DNA from: Flavobacteriaceae bacterium
GTDB lineage: Bacteria > Bacteroidota > Bacteroidia > Flavobacteriales > Flavobacteriaceae
Assembly (NCBI GenBank): GCA_016744415.1
Contig: JADGEL010000001.1
Coordinates: forward strand, 124,001-188,000
Length of the DNA: 64,000 bases
Reading direction: 5' to 3'
The notes under the pieces were generated by a model, which saw nothing but the letters and a program-made list of their open reading frames with translations, did no database searches and had not been told where the DNA came from. Position 1 is the stretch's first letter, and each line of letters starts with the position of its first letter. Shown here one piece after another: positions 9,444-50,631 of this stretch. The translations under genes were made by a program, and so were the position numbers.

Positions 9444-9478
9444 TTTAGCTATAAGACTTTAGTAGTTAGACTCACACC

Positions 9479-11119: not shown

Positions 11120-11153
11120 GGCGCAAACAACTAACACCAATAAGTTGTGCGCC
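11120..11153. terminator. Imperfect hairpin after the FAD dehydrogenase gene
   Basis: GGCGCA(AA)CAACT faces AGTTGTGCGCC, a GC-rich stem interrupted by a two-base bulge, in the gap between two convergent genes. There is no strong U tract on either strand, so its role as terminator is inferred from position. Confidence 0.4.
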
Positions 11154-11167
11154 CCAATCTTACTAAT

Positions 11168-11371: not shown

Positions 11372-11510
11372 AATAAAAACGCTTAATAATTTAAAATATA
11401 ATTAAATATTTAAGGGGGCGGTTAAAGCAACTACATTTAAACCCTTAATTGGTTCAAAAATATTGAAGATATTATTGTTGTGCAGTAACCAGAGTCACCA
11501 ATGAATAAAA

Positions 11511-11541
11511 AAGTAGCCTTCATTTTAATTAAAAGCTACTT
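11511..11541 (-). terminator. Terminator of the surface-protein operon
   Basis: AAGTAGC pairs with GCTACTT across a 17-base loop; on the minus strand the hairpin is followed by a T-rich run. It lies 57 bases after the stop codon of the last gene of the minus-strand block. Confidence 0.6.
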
Positions 11542-11597
11542 ATAAAATTGAATTCAAACTATTTTATAATTAATTTTTCGGATTATCTATCATATAG

Positions 11598-12937: not shown

Positions 12938-12940
12938 AAT

Positions 12941-14776: not shown

Positions 14777-14777
14777 T

Positions 14778-15311: not shown

Positions 15312-15332
15312 GATTTTATTATTTAGTTTTTA

Positions 15333-16418: not shown

Positions 16419-16436
16419 TATAGTAATTTTTATAAG

Positions 16437-17393: not shown

Positions 17394-17435
17394 AACTATT
17401 GTTTTTTTTACTTTAATTTATTTTTACTAAAGGTT

Positions 17436-18695
17436 TTAAAACTTAACAAATTCTACTCTACGATTATTTGCTTTTCCTTCAGCAGTTGAATTATTATCTA
17501 ATGGTTTACCTTCTCCAAAGCCAGTAGATTTTAATCTTGACGCATCAATACCTAATTCAATAAGTTTGTTCATTACTACTTTTCCACGAGCTTTAGACAA
17601 GGTCATATTGGTTTCGGTATTGCCATCACTATCGGTATGTCCTTCTACACTAAAGTTGATGTCAGTATTTTTTATCATAAGCTTATAAATTTTATTAATT
17701 GGACCCATGCTTTCTGGTTTAAGTGTAGCTTTATTTATATCGAATTTTATTCCGCTTACAATTATTTTCCCTTCAGAAAGTACACGGTCATAATATTTTA
17801 CACCTCCTTTGGCAATACGGAAATTTTTAAGGTACATTTTATCATTTATCCCACTAAATGTAAGTCCTGTAGGATTTTTTTCTAAATGTGGTATATTGAT
17901 TAATCGTGTATCGTTCATATACACCTTAAATTTTCCTTTGGTATATGCAATAGAAATATGTCTCCATTGGCCAATAGGCTCTTCAGACCAACCATTGGTT
18001 TCTGTACCAGGATATCTTTTATCTGTATTAATAAACTCTAGACCGTTAGGATAAACCACCAAACGCTCATTAAAATCAGAGCTCCTTTGCTGATTCTTTG
18101 TATCCTTAAAAGAAATGAAATATCTATTGGCTGTACTCTGCCTTTTCTCAAACCAAACATCAAATTCTATGGTAAAAATTTCAGGTAAATAATCTTCACT
18201 AGCATTTTTTAAATAAGGGATTATTTTCCCTCCATCAATAAACATTATAACAAGCTCTCCATCTACTTCGGCAATTTCTGCACTTCCGCCAACTAAATCC
18301 CATCGGCTTGGAAATTCTCCATTTTCTTCATCATCACTTGGTATGTCTTCAAAAATAACCGTGTCTCCAGGAATAAAATCAAATTTATTCCATACTACTG
18401 TAGGTTGATTATTTTCTTCTAAAGCTACCTTATTATTAATGTTTTTTTGGGAGGAACTATCTTGATTAACAGCAGTGGAATCCTTTTCTTTTTCAGAAGA
18501 TTTCTTGTTCTTTCCATCAATCTCATCTTCTACTCCATCAAAGACTTTATCTATTCTTTTCTCAGTTCTAACTTCAGCTTCTTTTTCTATTTTTTTATTA
18601 GTTTTTTCTACTAGTTTTTTAAAAAATTGCGCATTACTATTTTGAGAAAATGCAAAAAAGAGTATTAATATTAAAAATTTTACTAAAGATTTCAT
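17436..18695 (-). CDS. OmpA-family protein with LamG-like domain
   Basis: A 419-residue envelope protein. Signal peptide 1-22 (ends SNAQ). A charged, coiled-coil-prone segment (about 25-85) is followed by a concanavalin/LamG-like region (about 105-295: FTIEFDVWFEKR, GQWRHISIAYTKGKFKVYMND). The C-terminal OmpA domain (about 305-419) contains FSVEGHTDSDGN and the RRVEF end, which binds peptidoglycan. It would anchor a carbohydrate- or surface-binding domain to the cell wall. It is the first gene of the seven-gene minus-strand block and is preceded by a -7 box and inverted repeats. Confidence 0.85.
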   Translation of the reverse strand: MKSLVKFLILILFFAFSQNSNAQFFKKLVEKTNKKIEKEAEVRTEKRIDKVFDGVEDEIDGKNKKSSEKEKDSTAVNQDSSSQKNINNKVALEENNQPTVVWNKFDFIPGDTVIFEDIPSDDEENGEFPSRWDLVGGSAEIAEVDGELVIMFIDGGKIIPYLKNASEDYLPEIFTIEFDVWFEKRQSTANRYFISFKDTKNQQRSSDFNERLVVYPNGLEFINTDKRYPGTETNGWSEEPIGQWRHISIAYTKGKFKVYMNDTRLINIPHLEKNPTGLTFSGINDKMYLKNFRIAKGGVKYYDRVLSEGKIIVSGIKFDINKATLKPESMGPINKIYKLMIKNTDINFSVEGHTDSDGNTETNMTLSKARGKVVMNKLIELGIDASRLKSTGFGEGKPLDNNSTAEGKANNRRVEFVKF

Positions 18696-18730
18696 TGTGC
18701 TATTTGTTAATTATTAATAGCACAAATTTA
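18695..18730 (-). promoter_or_regulatory. Promoter and inverted-repeat operator of the surface operon
   Basis: TAAATTTG on the minus strand (18723-18730) is an exact TAnnTTTG. A 10-bp perfect inverted repeat, TTGTGCTATT (18695-18704) and AATAGCACAA (18716-18725), separated by 11 bp, overlaps both the -7 box and the start codon. A DNA-binding protein sitting there would block transcription initiation. Confidence 0.5.
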
Positions 18731-18774
18731 ATATGGAGAATGAAATTTTATTTCATCAAAAAGTATGAAATGTT

Positions 18775-18792
18775 TTCACCCTAAAGGGTGAA
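18775..18792. terminator. Short hairpin after the TPR-LuxR gene
   Basis: TTCACCC TAAA GGGTGAA is a perfect 7-bp stem with a four-base loop, 43 bases after the stop codon at 18835. On the minus strand it is followed by AAAACATTT, so it lacks a U tract. It could be a terminator or a regulatory site of the surface operon. Confidence 0.4.
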
Positions 18793-18834
18793 TTTTAATG
18801 AATATTTGTTGATAATGAAAGTGTTGCTGTTTTG

Positions 18835-20421
18835 CTAACTGTTTATTTTTTTCATAGCCTGAATTCTATTTCTTACATCAAGCTTAGAATAAAGGTTTTT
18901 AATATGTGTTTTTACAGTGTTTTTTGAAACAAACATTTTTTCTGCAATTTCTTCGTTACTAAAACCATTAGTTATTAGTTCTAATACTTCTATTTCTCTT
19001 TTTGAAAGATCATAAATTTTAATTTTTTCAGAATCTACATTCAATGAAATATTAGTATTATTTTTAACCAAGCTCTCTAATTCACTAATTTGAAGAATAT
19101 GTTTTTGTATTTCATTATTTTGTTTTTCTAACTCTAACATTTTGTTTTTACGAAGTAAGTATAAAGAAAATATTAAAATAGCAATTAATAACAAACTAAA
19201 TAATGAACCCCATAATAGCACTTTCAAATTTGTTTTAGCTTTTTCAGTACTTCTTTCATTTTTTCTAGCTAACTCTTTTAATTGTTCATCTTTCTTCAAT
19301 GTTTCATATTCTATTTGGGTACTAATGATACTTTTTTGTGATGAAACATTTACAATGCTATCATGATATTTTGTTGCTTTTTTATAAGATTCTAGCGCAT
19401 GTTTAAATTGATTAGTTTGAGTGTAATACTGAGTTAACGCAGTATAGCCCAACACAATATTTTCTTTAGACTTTATATTTAAAGCAGTTTGTAATCCTTG
19501 GTTTATATTATCTAAAGCCTCTTTATACTTATTAGTATGAATTTGATTAACACCAATATTTATAAGAGTATTACTTAGATATCGTAAACTATTGTATTTA
19601 ACCAATTGAGGAATCGCTTTTTGATAGTATATAATAGATTCTGTATAGTTTCCTTCTTTTTGAAATAACAACCCCAACAAGTTATATTTAATTGCAACCC
19701 CTTCTTTTCTAGGATTTTTCTTAGCTAGAATCAATGATTTTTTAAAATAATAATGAGCTGAATCATATTGTTTCTTACTTAAATATACTTCCCCAATATT
19801 TGCAAAACCATATTCTTGTCCTCTTTCATTTTGACTCTTTGCTTCTACTTCAACTCCTTTTTTAAAATATTTTAAAGCTTTATCATATTCTTCTGTATTT
19901 ATAAATACATTTCCTATTCCGTTTAAAGCAATTGCAATACTTCTCTGACTATTTATTCTTTCAGCAAGATTAAGGGCTTGAAAATAATGAACAAAAGCTT
20001 CTTTTTCAAGATTGAGCTTTCGATAGGTTACTCCTAAACTATTTAGGCATTTTACTTTTGAAAGCGTATCTGTACTTTTTTCATAATACGTAAGTGCTCT
20101 TTTATGGTAATTTACAGATAGTGTGTAATCGTTATCATAACGCGCTGTAATTCCCATCCGATTATAACTTTTTGCTATCCCGTCTATATAATAAATCATT
20201 TCTGAGACCAATAAAGCTTCTTCAATAATCTCATTGTTGCCTTCTCGTTGTTTAATAGATTGCCTATAAAGATTTATTAATTTTTCAGCTTTTAAAGAAT
20301 CGTTTTTTGTAATTTTTAATTCGGAAAAAGTTTTACTGATATCAATTTCTTCTTTTTTGTCTTGCCCAAAAGTAGAAATTGAAAGTAGAAATAGTAATAC
20401 GTAGATTAATCTTATGGGCAT
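18835..20421 (-). CDS. TPR-containing LuxR-type transcriptional regulator
   Basis: A 528-residue regulator with a signal peptide (1-19). A large array of tetratricopeptide repeats (about 60-370) contains, for example, [27 protein letters not shown] and [14 protein letters not shown]. One membrane helix (about 397-418) and a short coiled coil follow. The C-terminal LuxR helix-turn-helix (about 465-528) carries [21 protein letters not shown] and [15 protein letters not shown]. The TPR domain faces the periplasm and the HTH the cytoplasm, an arrangement common in Bacteroidetes. It lies directly upstream of the surface operon in the same direction, so it is the obvious candidate regulator of that operon, but this is inferred. 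Confidence 0.85.
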
Positions 20422-37853: not shown

Positions 37854-39758
37854 TTATTTTTTTACTAATACAATTTTAGACTTATCACCTTTTACAACTT
37901 TACGTCTAAAATTTCGGTAATGTTCATATTCCTCTTTTGGGTAATCGCCAGCTTTTAATAAAAACTTTCGTGTAAATTTTAAGCTGTGTTCATCTATTTT
38001 TTCGACTGTCATTGTATAAGTACCATATTTTGTGTCAACAGACACATCATCAGCAATGGCTTCTATTGAGTAGTCTGATGGTAGTTTAATGGTAATCTCA
38101 TCGGTATCATAATAACCTCGAGCTACCTCAACAGGCAACTTTCTATTCCGCACTCGTTTTGGAGCACGTTTAATTACATTAAATGCATTTAACGGAATAA
38201 TCATTCTATTACCACTAACTGTTCCGTAGTTGGCGGCTGTAAATGAAATATTTTCTTCAAACTGTCCTTCTTTTTTATTGTTTTTCATATCAATTCTGCC
38301 AAGTGTCATATTATTGATATTGTCCCAAAATTCTTTATATAGCTTTTCTTTGTCCTTGTTATTACTGGTTTCAAAACCTAAATGAGTATCAAATTGATTC
38401 CCTCTATAAATTACTTCAACTTCAGCCTCCATATTTCCATTTGATTCAATACTATAACTTCCTTTTATACTTTGTGTATTCTCCTTAGCATCATAAACTC
38501 TTGTATGAACTATTTTACCACCTTTCGGAGTAATCACCAAAACATCTCTATCATCAGTAAAACCTGCAATTTCTCCAAATGGAACATTCTGCGATGTACA
38601 CTCTAACCAAATATTTTCGGTGCCATTAGGGATGTTTAAAATAACATGATTTCCTTGCATTGAAAACACTTCTTTTTCAATATCAATTTTTTCATCACCT
38701 CCCCATAAAACGGTATAATTAGAGGGCACATCTACAACTTTCAATAATGCCTGTGTATAGTTTGTTAATCCTTTACAATCTCCATAACTAGTACTATGAA
38801 CCTCATCAGCTGTGATTGGTTTCCATCCACCGATTCCTACTTGTACACTAATATATCGTACTTTGTTTTGCACAAATTCATAAACAATTTTAGCTCTTTC
38901 AATCGGGTCATCAACTCCAATAACAAGCCTTTTTATTTGATTAACTATTGGACCATGTATTTCACCGGATCCATTATTTAAATTTTGATAACTCCACAGT
39001 CCAAACTCACTCCAATTTTCAGCTTCACCATCAATACCCTCTAAATTAAATTTATTAACTCCCAATCTTACATTCGGAGCTATTTTAGAAAATGATGGTG
39101 CACTAGGTTCCCATCCTATGGCCTTAATATTTTCTGTTGTATAACTAATATGGTGCAGACCTTTATCAACCTTAATATTGAATCCGTCAAAATTTTTCTC
39201 TAAGCTGTGTATATTTATATCAGGAGGACACACAAACCTAAAACTCGCTCTTTCTACACTTTGATAATAGCCGCCAACCGCATACCACCTAGGTATAAAT
39301 GCTGTATTTGAAGTTTGCACTTCGTATTTATAATAAATAGTATATGGATATGTTGTTGGTGTATAATCAAAATTATAAAACTTATTATCTGTATATAAGC
39401 TACTTCCTGACCCGCTATACTCATCAAAATCACTTTTCTTTATTTTTTCAATTTGATTCCCCATGGCATCATAAACATATCCTTTAAAAGATCTTAAATG
39501 CCTGTTTTTATCAAAAGAAACTGAAATGTCAGAGTAATGATCAGCACGTTTATTGAAAACAGTAATTGCCATTTCTGTTACAATAGTCATATTACTTTGC
39601 GAAATCATTTCAATACTCATATTATCCATGCGTATAACCGCATTGGCATCTTCTTTTAATTCATCTGGAATTAAAAAAGTTGCAAACTCTAGTTTTTGGG
39701 AAAATATGGTTGTTGATATAAGACAGCAACATACAATGAGGAAAGAAAATTTTAACAT
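37854..39758 (-). CDS. DUF3857 / transglutaminase-like protein with intact catalytic residues
   Basis: A 634-residue exported protein (signal peptide about 1-20). DUF3857 at about 50-220 and a transglutaminase-like core at about 290-390. The active-site Cys is Cys328 in SYGDCKGLTNYTQALL and the His is His371 in QGNHVILNI. The C-terminal 240 residues form a second beta-rich domain. These proteins are widespread in Bacteroidetes and uncharacterised; peptidase or crosslinking activity in the periplasm is possible. It is separated from its catalytically altered paralogue by 62 bases. Confidence 0.82.
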   Translation of the reverse strand: MLKFSFLIVCCCLISTTIFSQKLEFATFLIPDELKEDANAVIRMDNMSIEMISQSNMTIVTEMAITVFNKRADHYSDISVSFDKNRHLRSFKGYVYDAMGNQIEKIKKSDFDEYSGSGSSLYTDNKFYNFDYTPTTYPYTIYYKYEVQTSNTAFIPRWYAVGGYYQSVERASFRFVCPPDINIHSLEKNFDGFNIKVDKGLHHISYTTENIKAIGWEPSAPSFSKIAPNVRLGVNKFNLEGIDGEAENWSEFGLWSYQNLNNGSGEIHGPIVNQIKRLVIGVDDPIERAKIVYEFVQNKVRYISVQVGIGGWKPITADEVHSTSYGDCKGLTNYTQALLKVVDVPSNYTVLWGGDEKIDIEKEVFSMQGNHVILNIPNGTENIWLECTSQNVPFGEIAGFTDDRDVLVITPKGGKIVHTRVYDAKENTQSIKGSYSIESNGNMEAEVEVIYRGNQFDTHLGFETSNNKDKEKLYKEFWDNINNMTLGRIDMKNNKKEGQFEENISFTAANYGTVSGNRMIIPLNAFNVIKRAPKRVRNRKLPVEVARGYYDTDEITIKLPSDYSIEAIADDVSVDTKYGTYTMTVEKIDEHSLKFTRKFLLKAGDYPKEEYEHYRNFRRKVVKGDKSKIVLVKK

Positions 39759-39813
39759 AGCATTTAAAATAATTCCACTAATTTATTGAAAATAATGCTA
39801 AAAAAGGACTTTT

Positions 39814-40266
39814 TTATATTCTATTTTTTGAGTCCATTATGATCGTAACTGGACCGTCATTTATTAAAGATACTTTCATATCTTCACCAAACTCTCCTGT
39901 ACCTACTTTTTTTCCCAAATCACTTTCAAATTGACTTACAAAACTTTCGTATAAAAGAATTGCTAATTCAGGTCTCGCAGCTTTAATATAAGATGGTCTG
40001 TTTCCTTTTTTGGTGCTAGCTTGTAATGTAAATTGACTCACTACAATAGCTTCGCCAACGACATCAATCAATGATTTATTCATGACTTCGTTTTCATCAT
40101 TAAAAACTCTGAGATTGGCTACTTTTTTTGATAACCATAAGATGTCTTCTTGAGTATCATCAGCTTCGATTCCTAGAAGGATTAATAATCCTGAATTTAT
40201 TTTACTCACTGTTTTTTGATTGATTGTAACCGATGCTTCAGAAACTCTTTGAATTACTACTTTCAT
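39814..40266 (-). CDS. dtd: D-aminoacyl-tRNA deacylase
   Basis: A 150-residue DTD that hydrolyses D-aminoacyl-tRNAs. Family motifs are complete: the N-terminal MKVVIQRVSEASV, SQFTLQASTKKGNRPSY (about 77-93) and the cross-subunit GPVTIIMDS near the C-terminus. Length is typical. It follows rsgA by 75 bp. Confidence 0.95.
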   Translation of the reverse strand: MKVVIQRVSEASVTINQKTVSKINSGLLILLGIEADDTQEDILWLSKKVANLRVFNDENEVMNKSLIDVVGEAIVVSQFTLQASTKKGNRPSYIKAARPELAILLYESFVSQFESDLGKKVGTGEFGEDMKVSLINDGPVTIIMDSKNRI

Positions 40267-40290
40267 TTATTTTAGATAAATTTTATTTCT

Positions 40291-40315
40291 GTCTTTCCGC
40301 GAAAGCTGGAAAGAC
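40291..40315. repeat. Small palindrome between rsgA and dtd
   Basis: GTCTTTCC and GGAAAGAC form an 8-bp stem around GCGAAAGCT. The sequence resembles the CGTCATTCC..GCGAAAGC..GGAAT type of short interspersed palindromes common in bacterial intergenic regions. It may also terminate rsgA transcription. Confidence 0.45.
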
Positions 40316-40341
40316 AACCTAATTAGCCCTTATTAAACAAA

Positions 40342-41286
40342 TTACATTTCACTTCTAGTATTTAAACGGTAATGTTCTTCATCACCACTGAGCATTTGGA
40401 TATAACTAAAATAACGAGAAGGCGCTATTTTATCATTTTCTAAAGCTTTTTTTACCGCACAATTCGGCTCTTTTTGATGTAAACAATTATTGAATTTACA
40501 ATCCTTTTTTAAAGCAAACAATTCTGGAAAATAATCTGTAATTTCATGTGATTCAAAATTTACCACACCAAATCCTTTTATCCCAGGAGTGTCAATAATA
40601 AATCCTCCAAAAGAGAGTTCGTACATTTCGGCAAAAGTGGTGGTATGCTGCCCTTGTTTGTGCTGCTCAGAAATAGCCGCAGTTTTAATATTTAATGTAG
40701 GTTCAATAGCATTTATTAATGTGCTTTTCCCCACACCAGAATGACCAGAAAACATGGTCACTTTATCTTGCATCAATTCTTTGACTAGATCAATATTAAA
40801 ATTTTCTGTCGCTGAAATTTCAATACACATATACCCTATATCTGTATAAATCTGAAATAACTCTTCAACCATTTCTAGCTGAGCATCACCATATGAATCT
40901 ATCTTGTTAAAAAGTAAAACAGCAGGAATGTTATAAGCCTCGGCAGTTGCTAAAAAACGGTCGATAAACCCCGGAAATGTTGGTGGATTATCCGCCGTAA
41001 TCAATAGAAACGCAACATCAATATTAGCTGCTATAATGTGTGTTTGCTTAGACAAGTTTACAGACTTACGAACTATAAAATTCTTACGCTCGTGAATATT
41101 GTTTATGACTCCTGTTTCTTTAGAGGCCTCTAACTCAAAATCAACATAATCGCCTACAGAAATTGGATTGGTGCTTTTAATCCCTTTCATTCGAAATTTA
41201 CCTCTGATGCGACACTCATAATAAGTACCATCTTCGGTTCTAACGAAATACCAACTTCCTGTTGATTTTGTAACGAGTCCTGTCAT
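40342..41286 (-). CDS. rsgA: Ribosome small-subunit-dependent GTPase A
   Basis: A 314-residue circularly permuted GTPase that helps mature the 30S subunit. An N-terminal OB fold (about 1-70) is followed by G4 (NKID, about 126), G1 GHSGVGKST (about 181-189) and G3 DTPGIKGF (about 225). The C-terminal zinc site is CKFNNCLHQKEPNC with the ligands Cys, Cys, His and Cys. All order and spacing are as in the family. Confidence 0.95.
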   Translation of the reverse strand: MTGLVTKSTGSWYFVRTEDGTYYECRIRGKFRMKGIKSTNPISVGDYVDFELEASKETGVINNIHERKNFIVRKSVNLSKQTHIIAANIDVAFLLITADNPPTFPGFIDRFLATAEAYNIPAVLLFNKIDSYGDAQLEMVEELFQIYTDIGYMCIEISATENFNIDLVKELMQDKVTMFSGHSGVGKSTLINAIEPTLNIKTAAISEQHKQGQHTTTFAEMYELSFGGFIIDTPGIKGFGVVNFESHEITDYFPELFALKKDCKFNNCLHQKEPNCAVKKALENDKIAPSRYFSYIQMLSGDEEHYRLNTRSEM

Positions 41287-41313
41287 TTTTAATTTAAAAT
41301 TCTTCCTATTTAA

Positions 41314-41356
41314 AAGTGCGCTAAAGTTAGTAAATAAGACAAACTTTGGCGCACTT
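41314..41356 (-). terminator. Long hairpin after the aromatic amino acid operon
   Basis: AAGTGCGCTAAAGTT and AACTTTGGCGCACTT pair over 14 of 15 positions around a 13-base loop. It sits between the last gene of the aromatic operon and rsgA. The U tract is modest (TTTTAAAT on the minus strand). Termination is inferred from position. Confidence 0.5.
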
Positions 41357-41385
41357 AAATTTTTATTCTTGAATGATGTTTATTT

Positions 41386-41462
41386 CGTCATTGTAAACGT
41401 AGTGTGGCAACCTTTTTATTGTTATCTAAACAGATTACTTCGTGGCACCTCTTCGTGATGAC
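41386..41462. repeat. Degenerate interspersed palindromic repeat
   Basis: The stretch starts CGTCATTGTAAACG and ends CTCTTCGTGATGAC, with GGCAACC and GATTACTTCGTGGCACC between. This layout resembles the CGTCATTGCGAGC...GCAATGACG element of about 80 bases that is scattered through Flavobacteriia intergenic regions. Here it is eroded. Confidence 0.4.
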
Positions 41463-41478
41463 AGTAAAAATATATAAA

Positions 41479-42561
41479 TTAATTCTTTAAAATTTTTTCT
41501 TGATGGTTGATTGATTCTTGGTGAATGGCTTTAAACATTCTTAAAACAAATTCTTCACTCAAGCCTTTTTGCTCACCTTCTAGAATCATTTTTCCTAAAA
41601 TTTCATTCCAACGAGATGTTTGTAAAACAGAAACATTTCCTGTTTTCTTTAACTTACCAATACCATCAGAAACCTTCATCCTTTTCCCTAAGGCTTCAAT
41701 TAAGCTATTATCAATAACGTCTATTTGGGCACGTAATAGATTTAACTCATTATTATAAGCTGCCTCTTTACTACTTTCTTTTCTGATTTTTAAATCATTC
41801 ATAATCTGTACTAAGGCTGCTGGAGTTACCTGTTGGGCAGCATCAGACCAAGCATTTTCTGGATCAAAATGTGTTTCTATCATCAAGCCATCAAAATTTA
41901 AATCTAGTGCTGTTTGTGACACATCTAAAATCATATCACGCTTACCTGTAATATGAGATGGGTCGCAAATCAATGGTAAATCTGGAAATTTATTTTGTAA
42001 TTCAATTGCCAATTGCCACTCTGGAATATTACGGTATTTTGTTTTTTCGTAAGTAGAGAACCCTCTGTGAATAACTCCTAAATTTTTGATGTTTGCGGTG
42101 TACAATCTTTCAACGCCTCCTAACCATAAGGCCAAATCTGGGTTTACAGGGTTTTTAACTAATACAATTTTATCAGTTCCATCTAGTGCATCTGCAATTT
42201 CCTGAACAATAAATGGACTTACAGTAGAGCGTGCTCCAATCCACAATAAATCAATATCATGCTCCAAAGCTAACTTAACATGTGCTGCATTTGCAACTTC
42301 CGTAGCGGTTTTCATCCCTGTTTCTTCTTTTACTTTTTGCAACCATTTTAAGCCTAATGCTCCAACACCTTCAAACATTCCTGGTCGGGTTCTAGGCTTC
42401 CAAATTCCTGCTCTAAAATAATTGACGTCTGTGTCTTTTAATTCGTGTGCAATTTTTAGTACTTGCTCTTCAGTTTCGGCACTACATGGTCCTGCTACGA
42501 CGAGTGGATGATCCAAGTTCATATCATCCAACCATGTTCTCATTTCTTTTTGATTTTTCAT
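41479..42561 (-). CDS. Fused DAHP synthase / chorismate mutase
   Basis: A 360-residue bifunctional enzyme of the shikimate pathway. Residues 1-255 are a DAHP synthase of the KDPG-aldolase-like type, with VVAGPCSAET, FRAGIWKPRTRPG, IGARSTVSPF and CDPSHITGKR. Residues about 272-360 form an AroQ-type chorismate mutase (RAQIDVIDNSLIEALGKRM). The fusion is typical of Bacteroidetes and makes the first and branch-point steps of Phe/Tyr synthesis sit on one chain. It is the last gene of the operon headed by pheA. Confidence 0.92.
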   Translation of the reverse strand: MKNQKEMRTWLDDMNLDHPLVVAGPCSAETEEQVLKIAHELKDTDVNYFRAGIWKPRTRPGMFEGVGALGLKWLQKVKEETGMKTATEVANAAHVKLALEHDIDLLWIGARSTVSPFIVQEIADALDGTDKIVLVKNPVNPDLALWLGGVERLYTANIKNLGVIHRGFSTYEKTKYRNIPEWQLAIELQNKFPDLPLICDPSHITGKRDMILDVSQTALDLNFDGLMIETHFDPENAWSDAAQQVTPAALVQIMNDLKIRKESSKEAAYNNELNLLRAQIDVIDNSLIEALGKRMKVSDGIGKLKKTGNVSVLQTSRWNEILGKMILEGEQKGLSEEFVLRMFKAIHQESINHQEKILKN

Positions 42562-42593
42562 TTCTTTTACTTTTACTTGTTATTATTGTGTTG

Positions 42594-43442
42594 CTATTTT
42601 ATTCCTTTTAATACTTTTCTTAGATGATTAGTTTCCTCCATTATTTGATGAATTTTATCTACCTCATTATCTTTTAACAAATTTTTAAATTCAATTAAAT
42701 TTTTGATATAGCTTTCCAAAGCTGTTAATAAATTCTGTTTATTTTGCGTAAAAATTGGAGTCCAAGTATTTGGCGAACTTTTTGCCAAACGCACTGTCGA
42801 TTCAAAACCAGAACCAGCCATGTCAAAAATATTTTGCTCATTTTTTTCGATACCTAATACTGTTTTTCCCAACATAAAAGAGCTTACATGCGATAGATGC
42901 GAAACATATGCAATGTGCCGATCATGCTCTACAGGGCTCATATATTTGTACTCCATTTTTAACTTATCAAAAATATCAAATGCTTTATTTGCAATTTGCC
43001 TTTTGGTTTTTTCTAGCTCACAAATGATATTTACATTTCCACAAAATAGATTTGAAATTGCGGCATTTGGTCCTGAAAATTCTGTTCCTGCAATTGGATG
43101 TGCAGCCAAAAAATTTTTCCTCTTTGGATGATTTGCCAAGGTTGCACAAATTTCTACTTTTACTGAACCTACATCAAAAACTAAAGTGTCATCAGCTACT
43201 ATATTTAACACATCGATAGCTATTTTTGAAATTGTATCAACAGGTGTAGCGATAATAACCATATCAACATCAGTCAATTTATCAATGGTAGCAATACTAT
43301 CAATAAAACCTAGCTCCAATGCTTTTTTAGCATTTTCAGGATTCGCATCTATCCCAATAATGGAACTTTCAAATTCTCTTTTGATGTCGACTGCGAGAGA
43401 GCCTCCAATTAATCCTAATCCTATTACTGCAACTTTTTTCAT
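42594..43442 (-). CDS. tyrA: Prephenate dehydrogenase
   Basis: A 282-residue NAD(P)-dependent enzyme converting prephenate to 4-hydroxyphenylpyruvate. The Rossmann motif is VIGLGLIGGSLA (5-16) and the family motif AAHPIAGTEFSGP carries the catalytic His near residue 115. No chorismate mutase or ACT domain is attached; the mutase sits in the neighbouring gene. It follows the aminotransferase by 15 bases. Confidence 0.93.
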   Translation of the reverse strand: MKKVAVIGLGLIGGSLAVDIKREFESSIIGIDANPENAKKALELGFIDSIATIDKLTDVDMVIIATPVDTISKIAIDVLNIVADDTLVFDVGSVKVEICATLANHPKRKNFLAAHPIAGTEFSGPNAAISNLFCGNVNIICELEKTKRQIANKAFDIFDKLKMEYKYMSPVEHDRHIAYVSHLSHVSSFMLGKTVLGIEKNEQNIFDMAGSGFESTVRLAKSSPNTWTPIFTQNKQNLLTALESYIKNLIEFKNLLKDNEVDKIHQIMEETNHLRKVLKGIK

Positions 43443-43457
43443 TCTTTTTTCTTTTTT

Positions 43458-44600
43458 CTACAATCTTGACAATGCTTCTTTTAATTGTTGCTCATCTACA
43501 CATAATGACAAACGAATATATCCTCCTCCGTTCGTTCCAAAAACTGTCCCAGGTGTAATGAAAATGTCTTTGTTATACAACAAATCATCTACCATTTCAT
43601 CTGTCGTAACACCTTTGGGTAATTTTGCCCAAACAAACATTCCTACACTGTATTTATCGTAACTACAATTTAGCTTGTCTAAAATTTTCCAAACTATTTT
43701 CCTACGACTTTCATAGATTGCATTGTTCTTTTTAAACCAATCATCTGTTTCATTTAATGCTGTAATTGCTCCTTGCTGTATGCCATAAAACATACCCGAA
43801 TCAAAGTTACTTTTTACTTGTAACACTGTTTTAATCAATTCTGAATTTCCGAGTAACATCCCAACTCTCCATCCTGCCATATTAAAAGTTTTACTCAATG
43901 AGTTTAATTCTAATACGTGTCCGTCAGCAGCATCAACTTCTAACATACTCAGCGGATTGTCATTCAAAATAAAACTATACGGATTGTCATTCACCAACAA
44001 AATATCATGTGCTTTTGCAAAAGCTACTAATTTTTGATACAGTTTTTTGGTGGCTGGTGCACCTGTTGGCATGTGTGGATAATTTGTCCACATAATTTTA
44101 ACTTTTGATAGATCTTGTTTTGCTAACAAATCAAAATCTGGCTCCCAGTTATTTGCTTCCATCAAATTGTAAAAAACGGGTTTTGCACCTACCAAATTTG
44201 TGACCGATGTATATGTTGGATATCCAGGGTTTGGTATCAAAACTTGATCTCCTTCATTTAAAAAAGCCATTGAAATATGCATGATTCCTTCTTTGGACCC
44301 CATCAATGGCAAGACCTCATTTTCAGGATTCAATGTAACATTATAATTTCGTTGATAAAAATTACTAATAGCAGTTCTAAATTCTAATAAACCTTGGTAA
44401 CTCTGATAACCGTGTGCTTGAGGATGTTGAACAGCATCGACAATTACATCCAACACTTTTTGTGACGGTACTAAATCTGGACTTCCAATAGCTATACTTA
44501 TGATTGGCTTACCAGAAGCGCGTAATACAGCGACTTCTCTCAATTTAATTGAGAAGTAATATTCCGTAACGTCTTGTAATCGCTTTGCTTTTGCTATCAT
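43458..44600 (-). CDS. Class I/II PLP-dependent aminotransferase (aromatic operon)
   Basis: A 380-residue fold-type I aminotransferase. The PLP-binding Lys lies in LNSLSKTFNMAGWRVGM; SIGSPDLVPS and the C-terminal GGGYIRLSL, which binds substrate carboxylate, are present. Its place between pheA and tyrA implies that it makes phenylalanine and tyrosine from phenylpyruvate and hydroxyphenylpyruvate, or arogenate if it acts earlier. The start codon overlaps the pheA stop by one base. Confidence 0.88.
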   Translation of the reverse strand: MIAKAKRLQDVTEYYFSIKLREVAVLRASGKPIISIAIGSPDLVPSQKVLDVIVDAVQHPQAHGYQSYQGLLEFRTAISNFYQRNYNVTLNPENEVLPLMGSKEGIMHISMAFLNEGDQVLIPNPGYPTYTSVTNLVGAKPVFYNLMEANNWEPDFDLLAKQDLSKVKIMWTNYPHMPTGAPATKKLYQKLVAFAKAHDILLVNDNPYSFILNDNPLSMLEVDAADGHVLELNSLSKTFNMAGWRVGMLLGNSELIKTVLQVKSNFDSGMFYGIQQGAITALNETDDWFKKNNAIYESRRKIVWKILDKLNCSYDKYSVGMFVWAKLPKGVTTDEMVDDLLYNKDIFITPGTVFGTNGGGYIRLSLCVDEQQLKEALSRL

Positions 44601-45418
44601 TATCGCTTACTCTTTTTGTATTCTCCCAATATTTTTATCGACTCTACTTGCAATGCTATCTCATTCAAACTATTCTCATAATCTTCATACTTATCAAAAA
44701 TTAAATCGGCAAAAAAAGCATACCTCCACGGAGTTTCTACAATTGGCATGGATTGAATTTTAGATAAACTCACATTATTTTTACCGAATGAAGTTAAAAT
44801 AGAACCCAAGCTTCCTGCTTTATGTGAAGCTGTGAATCTGATAGAAGCTTTATTACCTTCTTCAAATTTCACTTCTTCATTTCTATCTAAAATAAAAAAT
44901 CTAGTTGCGTTGTTTTTAATCGTTTGTATTGTTGACGCAATAATTACTAACTCGTAAATATCCGCAGCTTTTTCACTTGCAATTGCCGCAACTCCTTTTA
45001 ATTGATTCTTCTGAATTCTTCTTGCTGACTCGGCAGTATCTTTATCTTCAATCAATTTAATATGAGGGTAGTTTTCGAAAAAATTAGCGCATTGTAACAG
45101 TGCCATTGGGTGTGAATACACTTCTTTGATATCTTCAATTTTTTGTCCTTTTAAACACATCAAATTTTGATGAACTCCTAAATGATATTCTCCAATAATG
45201 TTTAATTGATATTTATCTATCAAGGCGTAATTTGGCAAAATAGAAGCTGCAATAGAATTTTCAATCGCCATCACCAAAGCATCTACTTTACCATCGACCA
45301 ATAATTTTGGCATTTCAGAAAAAGTCATACATTCTGTTAATTCATAACCATCAGCAAAATAATTATCTGCTACAATATGATGAAAAGATCCTTTAACTCC
45401 TTGTATTGCTACTCTCAT
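44600..45418 (-). CDS. pheA: Prephenate dehydratase
   Basis: A 272-residue enzyme converting prephenate to phenylpyruvate. The PDT domain (1-175) has the IENSIAAS motif and the catalytic Thr in NNATRFFIL. An ACT regulatory domain follows (about 190-272), but the usual Phe-binding ESRP is QSMP in KIQSMPI. The frame runs on upstream to an ATG at 45469, but that extension is the terminator hairpin, and MRVAIQGVKGSF at 45418 is the normal family start. It opens the aromatic operon; expression is predicted to be set by transcriptional attenuation. Confidence 0.93.
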   Translation of the reverse strand: MRVAIQGVKGSFHHIVADNYFADGYELTECMTFSEMPKLLVDGKVDALVMAIENSIAASILPNYALIDKYQLNIIGEYHLGVHQNLMCLKGQKIEDIKEVYSHPMALLQCANFFENYPHIKLIEDKDTAESARRIQKNQLKGVAAIASEKAADIYELVIIASTIQTIKNNATRFFILDRNEEVKFEEGNKASIRFTASHKAGSLGSILTSFGKNNVSLSKIQSMPIVETPWRYAFFADLIFDKYEDYENSLNEIALQVESIKILGEYKKSKR

Positions 45419-45427
45419 ATTTATTAT

Positions 45428-45464
45428 AAAAAAATAGGTCTCGATTTTATATTCGAGACCTATT
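45428..45464 (-). terminator. Attenuator terminator just upstream of pheA
   Basis: On the minus strand AATAGGTCTCGA, an eight-base loop, and TCGAGACCTATT form a perfect 12-bp stem. The 3' arm ends inside a run of seven T residues. The hairpin ends about nine bases before the pheA ATG, so it must be prevented from forming, at least part of the time, for the operon to be expressed. Confidence 0.85.
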
Positions 45465-45493
45465 GTCATTTAATTTTATTTTTAAACACACAC

Positions 45494-45498
45494 GTCTC
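45494..45498 (-). promoter_or_regulatory. Candidate antiterminator arm overlapping the leader stop codon
   Basis: GAGAC on the minus strand, sharing a G with the leader stop codon TAG, is complementary to GTCTC (45455-45459) in the 5' arm of the terminator. A ribosome stalled earlier would leave it free to pair; a ribosome at the stop codon would cover it. Only five pairs are seen, so this is tentative. Confidence 0.4.
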
Positions 45499-45560
45499 TA
45501 TTTCTTATTGTAAAAATAAAAATAGAAAAAGTTAAAAAACCAAGTGCGTTGAACTGTCAT
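45498..45560 (-). CDS. Aromatic leader peptide of the pheA operon
   Basis: A 20-codon reading frame starting ATG at 45560 and ending TAG at 45498. It encodes MTVQRTWFFNFFYFYFYNKK: one Trp, six Phe and three Tyr, so half of the residues are aromatic and nearly all form one block. It lies 18 bases after an exact TAnnTTTG promoter box and 33 bases before the terminator stem. This is the organisation of classic amino acid operon attenuation, in which ribosome stalling at scarce Phe/Tyr-tRNA prevents termination. The peptide itself probably has no other role. Confidence 0.85.
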   Translation of the reverse strand: MTVQRTWFFNFFYFYFYNKK

Positions 45561-45578
45561 TGTTTCGTAATTATGGGA

Positions 45579-45608
45579 CAAATCTAAAAAGAAAAATTAA
45601 ATACACAA
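45579..45608 (-). promoter_or_regulatory. Promoter of the aromatic operon
   Basis: On the minus strand TTG (45606-45608) is followed after exactly 19 bases by TAGATTTG (45579-45586), matching the Bacteroidetes consensus TTG-N19-TAnnTTTG. Transcription should start near 45573, giving a leader of about 145 bases up to the terminator. Confidence 0.75.
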
Positions 45609-45742
45609 CACAATCCTAAAAGAAATATGAAATAATTCTTTTAAATCCTATTTAATTAATTGGTTAACATAAAAACTATTGAACTTTTATGTATTCATCA
45701 AAAAATTATTAAAAAATGGTTATTAATTTATCAAATTAAAAA

Positions 45743-48700
45743 TTAGCCATTCTTTCTTAAATATTTACCTATTATCTTATTTAAGACATCTTTATTTATT
45801 GGTTTTGTTATAAATTCATCACAACCTGCATCTTTTGCTTTTTTCATATCCTCTCTAGTTGAATATGCCGTTTGCGCAACAATTGGCAAATCTGGGCTAA
45901 TTTTTTTTATCTCTATAGTTGCATCATAACCATTCATTTTAGGCATTTTTATATCCATTAGCACCAAATCTATACCTGGGTTATCTTTACACATTTCTAC
46001 AGCTTCTACCCCATCTATGGCGTGTAGGATTTTACATGGCACTCTTAATTTATCTATCAATAATATTTCTAGAAATAGAAAATTAACTTCCTCATCTTCT
46101 GCAATTAAAATAGTGCACTTTGGTATTTCTTTTTTTAAGCTTCCTCCTCTTTTTTTAGCTGTATTCTTTTTTACAACGGGCTTATATGGTATGGTTACGG
46201 TAAATGTAGCTCCATCCGTTGTTTTTGATTCTACTGAAATCTCTCCATCTAATAATTCTGCATTCTCTTTTGCTATAGATAGTCCTAATCCTAAACCTCC
46301 AGCTTTTCTTGATATTTTCTTTTCGGCTTGCGAGAATCTTTCAAAAATAATTTTTTGCTTTTCTGGTTCAATTCCTATTCCGGTATCTTTAACATAAATC
46401 TCTAAAAGGGTATTGTTTTTCTTAAGACTATATCCAAATGCAACATATCCTCTTGTAGTAAATTTTAAAGCATTTTCTAATAAATTGCTAAGAATTTTAT
46501 TCAACTTTACTTTATCAGTATAAATAGTACTTTCTGCATCTAATAATCCCTTTTTAAAATAAAGCGATATTCCTTGTTCTTTTGCTTTAATATCAAAAAT
46601 TGAGAATAACTCAAAAAATGAATCGTTTATACACACCTCACTTTCAACAACACTTACCTGCTTTGTTTCTAATTTAGAAATTTCAAGAATATCATCAATA
46701 ATATGTAACAATTCCCTACCACTATTTTGAATTATATTAACAAAATGCGTCCTTTTCTTATCTGTTAAATAAGCATCGTCTAACAACTGTGTAAATCCAA
46801 GAATACCATTCATTGGCGTTCTAATTTCATGTGACATATTGTGAAGAAATTCTGTTTTTAAACGATTACTTTCTTCTGCTTTATCTTTGGATTTAATAAG
46901 TTCAGATTCTATTTTTTTTCGTTCAGTTATATCTCTAAACTCAACACTTCTTACTTTCTTACCCTTATACGGAACCTCTTTTCCCTCTAACCGAAGCGGA
47001 TATAACTCTTTGTTTTTACGAACACCTACAGCTTTATATGGTTTTTCATAACCAGCTAAAATGTTTTCCATCACCAACTCCCTAAAGGATTCTTCTATTA
47101 ACAACAAGCCATCCATTCCAATTAACTCATCGAATGTATAACCTGTTATGTCAGATAAACCCTGATTGCAATCTAATATTACACCCTTATCATGTACTGC
47201 AATACCACCAAAAGAGGCGTTGTGTAACGCTTTATAGCGAATTTCGTTTTCTTGGGCTATTTTTTTTGAATCTTTTAGTTCTTTCTCTTTCTCTTTACGC
47301 TCTGTGATATCTGTCATATGGCTTGAATATGCTATAATGGTGTTCCGCTCATCTCGAATTGGAAAAACCTGTAACTCACAAGGAAAAACAGTGCCATCTT
47401 TTTTCTTGTTTAAGATTTCAGTTTTATACTTATTACCAACTGATATTGTGTCGTATATTTCAGTCTGAATTTCTTCAGATAAAAAGTCTGCGTTAAACAT
47501 TATTGGAGATTTACCTTGAACTTCTTCCAATGTATATTCATAAAGTTTTTTAAAGGATTCATTTATCCAAGTAATTTCGAAATCGAGATTCGTAGTTAAA
47601 ACAGCACTTTTTGCTTGCTGTGTGATTTCACTTAGAAACTTGATTTTTTCCTCTGCTTTTTTACGCTGATCAATGTTGGTAATAAGCCCATGCCACAAGG
47701 TAGAACCGTCATCTAATCTTTGAGGGATTGAATATCCTTCTATCCATGTAGGCTCTTTATTACCTGGTAAAATAACACGATATTCATCTCTCCATGGTGA
47801 TAAATTATCCGCAGATTTCTGAATACTTTCACCAACACGTTCTAGGTCATCTGGATGTATCATTTCAAATACAAGCTCAGCACTTTCGACAACCTGTTCT
47901 GGAGTTAAACCATAAATATCTTTGATTCCAATACTTGAATATGGGAAACATGAGGTGCCATCAGGTCTTAGTAAAAACTGATAAATAACTCCAGGAATTT
48001 GTGCAGATAAGTTTCTTAACAACTCATTTTTTTCTCTAAATGCTTCTCTTATGGTTTTTGCCTCGGTAATGTCTTGGATTATTCCTTTCATTTTCAATAA
48101 GTTTCCTTTATCGTCAAATACTAGAGCTCCCATTCCATATACCCAATGTGTTTCTTTTGTTTTTTTATTAATAATGCGATATTCTTTATTAAAAAACTCA
48201 TGATTAAGCATCACATTTGTTTCCAAATATTTTATCATCATTTCCTTATCATCTGGATGAATTACATTTAACCAAGAAACCACACCCTTTCTTTTTTTGC
48301 TTTTTATTCCAAAAATCATATCTAGCTCTAAAGAACTTTTCCACATCCCTGTTTCAAAATTTAAAATATAAGAGCCCATTTTAGCGACTTGTTGCGTTTC
48401 TATCAACATGTTTTCACTATCTGATATGGTTTTTATCATTAGTTTACGTTCAGTAAAATCTCTAAAAGTTCCTGTAATTTTAATTCTTACTCCGCCTTCA
48501 TCATATTCTTTCCTAATATTAGCAATAAGCCAAACTACTTTTTTATCAATGGGGCGAATAACTCTAAACTCTATAGCTTCATTTTTTACACCAATATCAT
48601 CGATAAATTGTTGTACTCCCATAAAATCTTCGGGATGTATTAAATTTGCCCAACCTTCAACATTTCTTTTATACAATTTATCAATTCCCAAAATTTCATC

Positions 48701-49759
48701 ACCAATCACTGAAGTTTCAAATAAATCTGTATTATCATAAAAAACAAAACTTCCTAAGTTTGCTATACTAAGCACTTCATTTAGTTTATCTTGATTCTTT
48801 ATTAAATTTAATTGTGTTTTCTTAAGACTAGAAATATCTTGAATAGATATATATACTTTCTTAAAATCGGCTTCATATCCTGGCGCGACAACAAATCTTA
48901 GGTGGACCTGTTTTATATTTCCGCTTTTAGTTTTTACTACAGTTTCTACTTCACATTTATTTTTACCAGTAATAAGTGAAACAAGTTGTTTTTTAAATGC
49001 TTCAAAAGATTCTGGCGTAAAAAAATTAGTAATGTTATCAAGTAAATCTTCTTTTGACAATGCCTCATGTAATAATACCGCTTCTTTATTCACATCAATA
49101 ACTATTGCTAAATCAGCACACTCTTTAACAAATTCTGGATGTTCATCAAAATATTTCTTAAAATGCTTTACTCCTTTTTTCTTTAAAGTATCAAGCAGTA
49201 TTTTTACTTCAGAAAAATCTTCTTCCCATAATGCAATTGGTGTTGCTTCAAAAATAGAACGATACCTTTTTTCATTACTCTTTATTTTTTCTTCTGCTAG
49301 TTTTCGTGAAGTAATATCACGTATCGTTCCCAAAACTAATTTTTCATTACCAACAGTAATAATATTCCCAATTATTTCTGCAAAATAATTTGTTCTGTCT
49401 TTTTTTTGAAGTTGAACATACATTGGTGTTCCTTCTTTTTCATTTTTACTTTCAGCAAATCTCTCATGACTCTCTTTTTTTGATTTCATATCAAAAACCG
49501 TCAAATCCAGTAATTCTTCTTCAGAGTATCCAGACATTTTACAGAATCCTGGATTAACATAAACATAATTCCCATCAAGGTCTGCTACTGTAACCCCCTC
49601 AGTAGTCTGATTTGCAAATGCTTTGAACTGCTTTTCACTTTCTTCAATAAGTTTAGCATATTCTTTGAGCTTAAAATTAGATTTTTGCAATGATGCTATT
49701 TTAGATTTCAAAGATTCATTCTCTTCTAAAAGTTCTTTTTGCGATTTGATTTTATCCAT
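45743..49759 (-). CDS. Multi-PAS hybrid sensor histidine kinase with receiver domain
   Basis: A 1338-residue soluble signalling protein with no membrane helix. A coiled coil (about 5-45) is followed by seven PAS/PAC units (about 45-155, 165-318, 325-445, 455-575, 585-710, 715-832, 840-958), each ending in a variant of D-I-T-E-R-K. The HisKA domain has FLHNMSHEIRTP with the phosphorylated His near residue 977. The ATPase domain has DTGIGIEPEKQ and GLGLGLSIAKE. The receiver domain has its Asp near 1268 in LVLMDIKMPKMNG. It integrates several cytosolic signals, but no output gene is adjacent. It lies 59 bases after a smaller kinase gene, probably in one operon. Confidence 0.9.
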   Translation of the reverse strand: MDKIKSQKELLEENESLKSKIASLQKSNFKLKEYAKLIEESEKQFKAFANQTTEGVTVADLDGNYVYVNPGFCKMSGYSEEELLDLTVFDMKSKKESHERFAESKNEKEGTPMYVQLQKKDRTNYFAEIIGNIITVGNEKLVLGTIRDITSRKLAEEKIKSNEKRYRSIFEATPIALWEEDFSEVKILLDTLKKKGVKHFKKYFDEHPEFVKECADLAIVIDVNKEAVLLHEALSKEDLLDNITNFFTPESFEAFKKQLVSLITGKNKCEVETVVKTKSGNIKQVHLRFVVAPGYEADFKKVYISIQDISSLKKTQLNLIKNQDKLNEVLSIANLGSFVFYDNTDLFETSVIGDEILGIDKLYKRNVEGWANLIHPEDFMGVQQFIDDIGVKNEAIEFRVIRPIDKKVVWLIANIRKEYDEGGVRIKITGTFRDFTERKLMIKTISDSENMLIETQQVAKMGSYILNFETGMWKSSLELDMIFGIKSKKRKGVVSWLNVIHPDDKEMMIKYLETNVMLNHEFFNKEYRIINKKTKETHWVYGMGALVFDDKGNLLKMKGIIQDITEAKTIREAFREKNELLRNLSAQIPGVIYQFLLRPDGTSCFPYSSIGIKDIYGLTPEQVVESAELVFEMIHPDDLERVGESIQKSADNLSPWRDEYRVILPGNKEPTWIEGYSIPQRLDDGSTLWHGLITNIDQRKKAEEKIKFLSEITQQAKSAVLTTNLDFEITWINESFKKLYEYTLEEVQGKSPIMFNADFLSEEIQTEIYDTISVGNKYKTEILNKKKDGTVFPCELQVFPIRDERNTIIAYSSHMTDITERKEKEKELKDSKKIAQENEIRYKALHNASFGGIAVHDKGVILDCNQGLSDITGYTFDELIGMDGLLLIEESFRELVMENILAGYEKPYKAVGVRKNKELYPLRLEGKEVPYKGKKVRSVEFRDITERKKIESELIKSKDKAEESNRLKTEFLHNMSHEIRTPMNGILGFTQLLDDAYLTDKKRTHFVNIIQNSGRELLHIIDDILEISKLETKQVSVVESEVCINDSFFELFSIFDIKAKEQGISLYFKKGLLDAESTIYTDKVKLNKILSNLLENALKFTTRGYVAFGYSLKKNNTLLEIYVKDTGIGIEPEKQKIIFERFSQAEKKISRKAGGLGLGLSIAKENAELLDGEISVESKTTDGATFTVTIPYKPVVKKNTAKKRGGSLKKEIPKCTILIAEDEEVNFLFLEILLIDKLRVPCKILHAIDGVEAVEMCKDNPGIDLVLMDIKMPKMNGYDATIEIKKISPDLPIVAQTAYSTREDMKKAKDAGCDEFITKPINKDVLNKIIGKYLRKNG

Positions 49760-49818
49760 AACTCAAGTATTGAATTTACTAGTTAGTTGTTAGTTAGAAA
49801 ACCTGTTTGTTGCTCACA

Positions 49819-50631
49819 TCAACTCATTCTTGGAAGTGTAATTTTAACCTCTGCCCCTTTATCTAATTCACTCTTAAAATAAATTTTTCCTTGGTGTTGC
49901 TCAATAATTATTTTAGACATAGTTAAACCCAATCCTACACATTTTTCTTTATCATTAGAGTATGTATTTACAACAAAATACTCATCAAAGACCTTCGCTA
50001 TATTTTCTTTACAAACTCCAACTCCATCATCGGTAATTAATGTCTCTACCGTATTTTTTGTGATAGTAACAGAAATAGTAATTGTAGTGTTTTCATTAGA
50101 ATATCTAATTGCATTTTCAACAATATTTGATATTGTTTTATCCATTTCTTCACTGTCAATCATTAGTATTTCTGAGGTAGTTTCTGATTTTGAAATGATA
50201 TTGATTCCTTTATCTAAAGCAAGCGGTATATGCCTATCAACAACTTGATTCAATAAATCTATATAATCTAGTTTACTGAATAAGTAAGCCATTTTTGGAG
50301 ATTTTAATCTTAAAAACTTTGAGGTTCTGTTTAAAAAGAGAATAGAATAATCAGCTGCTTTTTTAATAATTCCAATATGCTTTTTGAGTTTATCGGCATC
50401 GTAAAAATCAATATCTTCAAGTATCATTTCAGAAAATGAAGTAACTACACCAGCAGGGTTTTTCAAATCATGAATTAATCTAGCAACTAATTTATTATGA
50501 GATTCATTAATTAAATCAATCGATTTTTTTTCACTTTTCAGTTGAATCCTTAGATCAATTATTTTCTCTTCTAACTCTTCAATATACTTATCTGATTTTG
50601 TCTTATTCTTTTTCATTAACTTATTTTTCAA
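49819..50631 (-). CDS. Soluble sensor histidine kinase
   Basis: A 270-residue kinase without membrane helices or sensor domain. A short coiled coil (about 12-45) leads into the dimerisation helix with VARLIHDLKNPAG (His about 55). Then come the N box NAIRYSN, the G1 box DDGVGVCKENI and GLGLTMSKIIIEQH. The input probably comes by protein contact. It precedes the large hybrid kinase in the same direction and the two may form one signalling module. An exact TACATTTG box lies at 50690-50697 (minus). Confidence 0.88.
   Translation of the reverse strand: MKNKLMKKNKTKSDKYIEELEEKIIDLRIQLKSEKKSIDLINESHNKLVARLIHDLKNPAGVVTSFSEMILEDIDFYDADKLKKHIGIIKKAADYSILFLNRTSKFLRLKSPKMAYLFSKLDYIDLLNQVVDRHIPLALDKGINIISKSETTSEILMIDSEEMDKTISNIVENAIRYSNENTTITISVTITKNTVETLITDDGVGVCKENIAKVFDEYFVVNTYSNDKEKCVGLGLTMSKIIIEQHQGKIYFKSELDKGAEVKITLPRMS

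Follow-up and report, generated by a model that had tools for sequence, protein, structure and literature searches.

The 64,000-nucleotide (nt) stretch considered here (the window: GenBank assembly GCA_016744415.1, contig JADGEL010000001.1, positions 124,001 to 188,000 of the forward strand, from a member of the Flavobacteriaceae) carries, on its minus strand and directly ahead of the prephenate dehydratase gene pheA, an element that is very probably a ribosome-mediated transcription attenuator sensing charged tRNA-Phe and tRNA-Tyr and, through one codon, tRNA-Trp. From comparison of sequences, the probability of this reading is put at about 0.92. A first-pass annotation of the window had proposed ribosome attenuation for this site, and the comparison across relatives supports that model. 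The parts supported by comparison are the leader open reading frame (ORF), the terminator, the promoter-like box, an alternative pairing with matched changes, a fixed spacing, and codons that track the pathway; we infer that the leader is translated, that ribosomes stall on it, and the direction in which the operon would respond.

The promoter-like sequence, the 20-codon leader with ten aromatic residues, the 12-bp hairpin and the seven T residues before pheA that had been described initially are all present on the minus strand. The features of the locus are as follows (window coordinates, all on the minus strand):

45579-45608, promoter-like sequence: TTG at 45608-45606, a 19-nt spacer, and TAGATTTG at 45586-45579
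45498-45560, predicted leader ORF MTVQRTWFFNFFYFYFYNKK, 20 codons plus TAG, with its ATG from 45560 and TAG at 45500-45498 (from the sequence, relatives and a frame test)
within 45498-45560, segment 1, the aromatic codon run of the leader, with Tyr17 as its last codon
45494-45498, segment 2, GAGAC, the putative left arm of the antiterminator, sharing one base with the stop codon
45455-45459, core of segment 3, GTCTC, inside the 5' arm of the terminator, with segment 2 or segment 4 as its pairing partner
45433-45464, predicted intrinsic terminator hairpin (segments 3:4), 12 pairs with an 8-nt loop, predicted at -16.9 kcal/mol
45428-45434, U-tail, seven T from 45434, the first two bases shared with the stem
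44600-45418, pheA, prephenate dehydratase (PF00800, 1.7e-54)
43458-44600, Class I/II aminotransferase (PF00155)
42594-43442, tyrA, prephenate dehydrogenase (PF02153, PF20463)
41479-42561, fusion of 3-deoxy-D-arabino-heptulosonate 7-phosphate (DAHP) synthase and chorismate mutase (PF00793, PF01817)

The aromatic codons of the leader are 6 Phe, 3 Tyr and 1 Trp, its ATG stands 18 nt downstream of the promoter-like box, and segment 2 begins 11 nt past Tyr17. Because other codons break up the run, a pattern of eight consecutive Phe or Tyr codons went unmatched in the window. Folding of the 158-nt leader region gave -30.9 kcal/mol (z = -3.55), and the pheA hairpin stood first among the terminator-like sites of 38000-50000, which at six were scarcely more than the shuffle mean of 4.1. 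The gene order pheA, aminotransferase, tyrA, DAHP synthase-chorismate mutase is kept at 77 of 80 family loci (L052-L131); from its gene set, the operon would serve the synthesis of Phe and Tyr and, via DAHP synthase, of all three aromatic amino acids. Mechanical ORF calling places the start of pheA at 45469 (45416-45469, minus strand), inside the leader region, and a pheA annotated from there would conceal the attenuator; the homology of PheA starts at MRVAIQG (45418), upstream of which one relative (L003) lacks any in-frame ATG. Just upstream of the element on the same strand, 45743-49759 encodes a 1338-residue protein that, by reading, resembles a multi-PAS hybrid sensor kinase.

Conservation was assessed in a family sample of 125 pheA loci (12 from a search of the genus for PheA, in which 12 of 14 genomes matched, 28 and 80 further loci, and 5 named ones). 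Of the 186 family genomes in which PheA was matched, 110 are represented, with better matches having been chosen, and duplicates (L042-L045), a fragment (L013) and a non-relative (L051) were removed. Automated criteria, namely an aromatic-rich ORF and a U-tailed hairpin upstream of pheA, recovered the element at 121 of the 125 loci; with one locus recognized by eye (L128) and one added later (L151), leader and terminator occur together at 123 of the 126 pheA loci of the family. An initial automated pass had skipped eight of the 125, five of which hold the element (L110, L114, L121, L127, L128). As controls, 484 dinucleotide shuffles gave 3 hits under these criteria, 121 reverse complements gave 1, and 432 windows from the flanks of other loci gave 8. 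Among the other families of the order (48 genomes with a PheA match), the element was found at 9 of the 19 loci read (f2, f3, f8 and f14) and was absent at the one locus read from f11. In other orders of the class (28 genomes with a PheA match), it was found at 15 of the 20 loci read, 14 of them automated, with L213 and L221 weak, and L211 by eye. The first-pass annotation had named a failure of relatives to conserve the codon run and hairpin as grounds for abandoning attenuation; all three features, the codon run, the hairpin and the alternative GAGAC/GTCTC pairing, persist with matching sequence changes both within the family and outside it.

The composition of the leader is conserved to a greater extent than its sequence. 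Within the ten codons ending at the last aromatic one, the leader frame holds a mean of 7.94 aromatic codons against 2.25 and 2.97 in the other two frames (121 loci), a contrast that arises partly by construction because the frame was picked for its aromatic run. Phe and Tyr are both present in all 113 tallied leaders, Trp being lacking in 39; this tally omits L012, L061 and L088, where the wrong ORF was chosen, and L080, which has a shortened hairpin. The peptides themselves diverge widely, as exemplified by MTVQRTWFFNFFYFYFYNKK, MLQNVWQGFYFYFYFFNKG and MNRLENTFNSFYFIYDR; what stays constant is their composition and how far segment 2 lies from the last aromatic codon. That the ORF is short, hydrophobic and widespread would also suit a small membrane peptide with a function of its own, transcribed together with pheA, a reading we hardly credit at all, since little is fixed save composition, lengths range from 16 to 29 codons in the 113 leaders (barring one 41-codon start choice) and two re-coded leaders, described below, fit other downstream genes.

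The promoter-like sequence ahead of the leader, of the TTG-N19-TAnnTTTG type that we take to be the Bacteroidota promoter consensus, was sought in the 70 nt that precede the leader ATG. Its window form, TAnnTTTG, occurs at 31 of 121 family loci and 1 of 121 control stretches, and the relaxed form TAnnTT[TA]G at 115 of 121 and 5 of 121, respectively, with a TTG 17-23 nt ahead of the box at 88 of the 121 family loci. The relaxed boxes mostly end 15-23 nt ahead of the leader ATG; roughly a quarter of them end near 10 nt, which would leave the transcript with a very short 5' end. Scans with the sigma-70 consensus, which is presumably wrong for this phylum, gave 66 sites in 38000-50000 against a shuffle mean of 57.3 (standard deviation (sd) 6.3) and 100 sites in 1-20000 against 103.4 shuffled. 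The frequency of the relaxed box bears on the proposal that the hairpin is the ordinary terminator of the sensor-kinase-like gene, with a meaningless U-rich ORF between and the pheA promoter farther downstream. The end of that gene does lie on the same strand, at 45743, some 180 nt upstream of the leader; nevertheless, such a boxed leader would be hard to reconcile with this proposal, the pheA ATG follows the U-tail after just 9 nt in the window, and leader, segment 2 and terminator co-vary while the sequence farther upstream differs, so that this proposal is most improbable.

Segment 3 can pair with either of two partners, and segment 2 was found to change together with the terminator arm. 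Relatives with GTCCC arms mostly carry GGGAC as segment 2, those with GTCCTG arms carry CAGGAC or CGGGAC, family f8 carries GCGGTC with the arm GACCGC, and L206 carries GGAGGCGGGA with TCCCGCCTCC. Scored against their own arms, segments 2 gave a mean of 17.1 (117 loci) compared with 10.9 for shuffled segments. In a swap between classes within the family (113 loci), the score of GTCTC segments fell from 16.3 with arms of their own class to 10.5 with GTCCC arms, and that of GTCCC segments from 18.4 to 14.8 with GTCTC arms, to which G-U pairs contribute. A swap among 23 divergent loci (22 of them outside the family, with the weak L213 and L221 excluded and L206 and L211 added by hand) gave an own mean of 19.8 and a swapped mean of 13.2, and none of 2000 permutations reached the observed mean. 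In a 142-row MAFFT alignment, from which L206, L213 and L221 were left out, standard pairs make up 93.4% of the 2:3 cells, compared with a mean of 87.9% and a maximum of 89.2% in 500 shuffles, there are 65 double-change cells against a shuffle maximum of 35, and the terminator 3:4 cells are standard pairs in 98.1%; the counts were taken from the MAFFT run because another alignment (A1) has segment 2 one base out of register in some rows. The alternative pairing of the GAGAC/GTCTC switch proposed initially is kept, with one refinement: in the predicted fold the aromatic codons can also pair with the GAGAC segment (1:2), like the usual four-segment switch.

The 2:3 pairing keeps a near-constant distance from the end of the codon run. 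When the best helix was looked for in a stretch of 40 nt past the last aromatic codon, its centre fell 13.6 nt (sd 1.3) past that codon, and between 10 and 17 nt at 120 of 121 family loci, with its start at 8-11 nt in 106 of the 121; relative to the stop codon, the sd of the centre is 7.3. The distance to the stop codon wanders because segment 2 lies inside the leader in many species and at or after the stop in others. The overlap of the stop codon with GAGAC, to which importance had been attached earlier, is real in the window, and the constant feature is instead the distance from the last aromatic codon. A ribosome with a codon in its A site should reach about 11-12 nt beyond that codon, so that one paused at any aromatic codon would leave segment 2 largely free, and one that has arrived at the stop codon would mask the centre of segment 2 at 118 of 121 family loci, where this centre falls within -18 to +14 of the stop. 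A leader that binds a protein or metabolite (a T-box, a riboswitch or the target of an RNA-binding protein), with the ORF incidental, would share the terminator/antiterminator logic common to all such types. Such a leader is very hard to credit here: the conserved feature is an in-frame codon run at a fixed spacing from segment 2, and an Rfam scan of the window found no family at its gathering threshold.

For the attenuator, the following sequence of events would account for these features. Judging from the promoter-like box, transcription would start about 10-15 nt before the leader ATG, and a ribosome would translate the leader close behind the RNA polymerase. Under a shortage of Phe, Tyr or Trp, the ribosome would pause in the aromatic run and, with Tyr17 or an earlier aromatic codon in its A site, its front would come no further than the edge of GAGAC, which begins 11 nt downstream; free GAGAC could then grab the emerging GUCUC, blocking the 12-bp terminator and allowing the pheA operon to be transcribed. 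With amino acids ample, a ribosome at the stop codon would mask GAGAC, GUCUC would join its other partner, and transcription would stop near 45428. Without translation, the aromatic codons would pair with the GAGAC segment and termination would be favoured too.

Several observations weigh against this reading. In the swap test of divergent loci, the own segment is strictly best at just 5 of 23, and at the other 18 between 1 and 7 of the 22 foreign segments pair equally well or better, partly those of near relatives. The T/C change in segment 3 corresponds to 7 events on the PheA tree, with 4 independent pairs on well-supported branches, so few that an independent-pairs test cannot attain significance. 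The 2:3 core in the window comprises 5 pairs only, the stretch from segment 2 to segment 3 has a predicted folding energy of -12.2 kcal/mol where the terminator has -16.9, and the mean 1:2 pairing probability of 0.76 is a modest excess over the 0.58 obtained with the segment shuffled (121 loci). Additionally, the element is absent at three family loci (L095, L104, L116) and sits 343 nt upstream of pheA at a fourth (L114). In other families of the order, it is absent at the five loci read out of 19 in f4, a family with a PheA of about 30% identity, and at the four read out of 19 in f15 (L142-L145), where the genomes are of 0.6 Mb; these keep pheA, as if the attenuator had been lost with genome reduction. 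As a separate observation, repeated stretches with AGGTCT or GACCT precede pheA in L095.

A covariance model of the pheA element (R1) was used to search more widely. It gave one match at an expectation value (E) of 0.05 or lower in the source genome, at pheA, and matches at this cutoff in 55 of 60 family genomes, a count that is partly by construction because the loci of the model lie partly in the searched genomes; the best matches of three genomes (G024, G062, G070) are not the element. False matches begin at about E 0.002. Ten fetched matches with E from 1e-6 to 0.007 comprised 6 at pheA, 2 at other aromatic genes and 2 unrelated hairpins (E 0.002 and 0.005), and 17 weaker ones comprised 1 at pheA and 16 that are not the element, although a scan showed a U-tailed hairpin in 13 of these 16.

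Among 13 family genomes lacking PheA, in which neither PF00800 nor PF02153 (prephenate dehydrogenase) was matched (0 of 13 for each), two carry leaders with other codons. G043 has MTNNNTWWSNSKFYLKR, with two Trp (WW), one Phe and one Tyr, before a DAHP synthase-chorismate mutase gene, and G052 has the Tyr-only MKNLNNTYYYYPILTRRIGQ before the gene for a biopterin-dependent aromatic hydroxylase (phenylalanine hydroxylase), an enzyme that would make Tyr from Phe. Their R1 scores (E 0.002 and 0.005) are near the limit at which false matches begin, and both have matching anatomy and pairing of their own. Their positions are:

L311:297-359 and L310:269-322, putative re-coded leaders, Tyr-only before phenylalanine hydroxylase and WW-containing before DAHP synthase

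These two cases are suggestive, without amounting to proof, of codon content that tracks pathway loss in genomes without PheA and TyrA. They represent a natural experiment on how sensors may change their target.

Leaders matched to other amino acids were also read in the same and related genomes, by counts made with no shuffle control. Leader and hairpin were found for His-run leaders before hisG at 20 of 22 loci, for leaders with Trp pairs or triplets before trpE at 21 of 23, and for Ile/Val-rich leaders before ilvD at 8 of 12 by script, and a second ilvD-like gene had no hairpin at three loci. The source genome itself has MNFNLTHRHHFFPYCSGEFVML before hisG (L157), MTIIQNNIWWWNSLK before trpE (L192) and MRNINLNIISIIVLFVIIIT before ilvD (L228), each with a terminator. 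In seven trp leaders (L187, L188, L190-L192, L194, L195), the best pairing is that of a GTGAGA-like segment with the loop of the terminator instead of its stem arm, and this segment lies 18-19 nt past the last Trp codon, unlike the spacing at pheA; their predicted switch is of a different design. The source genome also has a Thr/Met/Ile-rich ORF, MSSIKGNITTTFETRTLGTISMMTMMTL, before an aspartokinase-homoserine dehydrogenase gene (L270), with similar ORFs in some relatives. The thrA leaders, including this one, have no U-tailed hairpin like that of pheA, and a small hairpin overlaps the end of the L270 ORF; without such a terminator, control of L270 may work differently.

The agreement between leader codons and downstream genes is relevant to nascent-peptide arrest, of which TnaC is an example and in which the aromatic peptide itself would stall the ribosome, sensing a free small molecule and not tRNA charging. 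A conserved, aromatic-rich leader is what such arrest would produce, and an RNA switch would look the same. Two patterns nonetheless make arrest very unlikely: the peptide sequences vary widely around a constant composition and last-aromatic-codon distance, and leaders of His, Trp, Ile/Val or Tyr-only type sit before the matching amino-acid genes.

Beyond the pheA element, we lean slightly towards a class-wide, codon-programmable attenuator in the Bacteroidota, with a switch measured about 11 nt, the reach of the ribosome, from the last cognate codon and a codon run swapped to suit the downstream gene (Phe and Tyr, with or without Trp, for the joint operon and, where PheA and TyrA have been lost, Tyr for the hydroxylase and a Trp-led run for DAHP synthase). 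If true, this would mean tight coupling of ribosome and polymerase on leaders with very short 5' ends. Bacteroidota mostly do without Shine-Dalgarno sequences. For the pheA element alone, attenuation, if it works, would be evidence of close coupling of transcription and translation in Bacteroidota, and the element offers a concrete, testable regulatory target for aromatic amino-acid synthesis in a large, little-studied bacterial group.

An attenuation survey by Lopatovskaya et al. from 2010, cited in PMC4833913, may cover some of these cases. The first-pass annotation had called aromatic attenuators in Flavobacteriia little studied, which is fair, save that a 2021 paper on Flavobacterium psychrophilum mentions a structured 5' element upstream of pheA and strong hints that operons for amino acids are preceded by leader-peptide attenuators; the passages available from it carry no anatomy or covariation (PMC9723704). 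Leader-peptide-like small ORFs are mentioned for Bacteroides thetaiotaomicron in a paper from which the word pheA is absent (PMC7366714), leader genes in Bacteroidetes are discussed in one from which the word phenylalanine is absent (PMC4833913), and none of the terms sought for the element is present in PMC2965389. No other paper describing the pheA element was found in a search that covered subscription papers thinly and thus leaves absence unproven. Overall, this kind of attenuator is already known, and its spread, the spacing rule, the matched pairing and the two re-coded variants are detailed here further than in the available literature passages.

Compared with catalogued families, the element is of the same kind as the Rfam Phe_leader (RF01859), which gave the second-best sub-threshold score in the window (24.1 bits, E 0.087); against a gathering score of 55, and ranking below a small nucleolar RNA (snoRNA) model, this means that the window element is not a member by score. 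The snoRNA model itself, the best sub-threshold match at 31.5 bits, was dismissed as chance. Bacteroid-trp (RF01692), a Bacteroidota leader element included in Table 1 of Weinberg 2010 (PMC2864571), matches the WWW leader before trpE in a relative of the same genus (L187, 55.7 bits, gathering 49); it matches neither the window nor any of the 10 pheA loci that were scanned. The same trpE locus carries a Flavo-1 RNA match (L187:2851-2961, 49.5 bits).

The closest known system is the pheL-pheA region of Escherichia coli (NC_000913.3), which also has a Phe-rich leader and a U-tailed terminator just before pheA; the likeness to enterobacterial pheA that had been drawn initially was borne out when pheL was read from the genome. 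There, the segment following the Phe codons, TGGGAGGC, pairs with the terminator arm GCCTCCCA through an 8-bp match, the same plan as in the window, although model R1 does not match pheL. The pairing segment starts 7 nt past the last Phe codon in E. coli, compared with the 8-11 nt past the last aromatic codon seen in most of the family. Whereas the E. coli run is of Phe only, the window leader has a mixed run of Phe and Tyr with Trp, and, unlike pheL-pheA, the operon that it precedes also carries tyrA and DAHP synthase.
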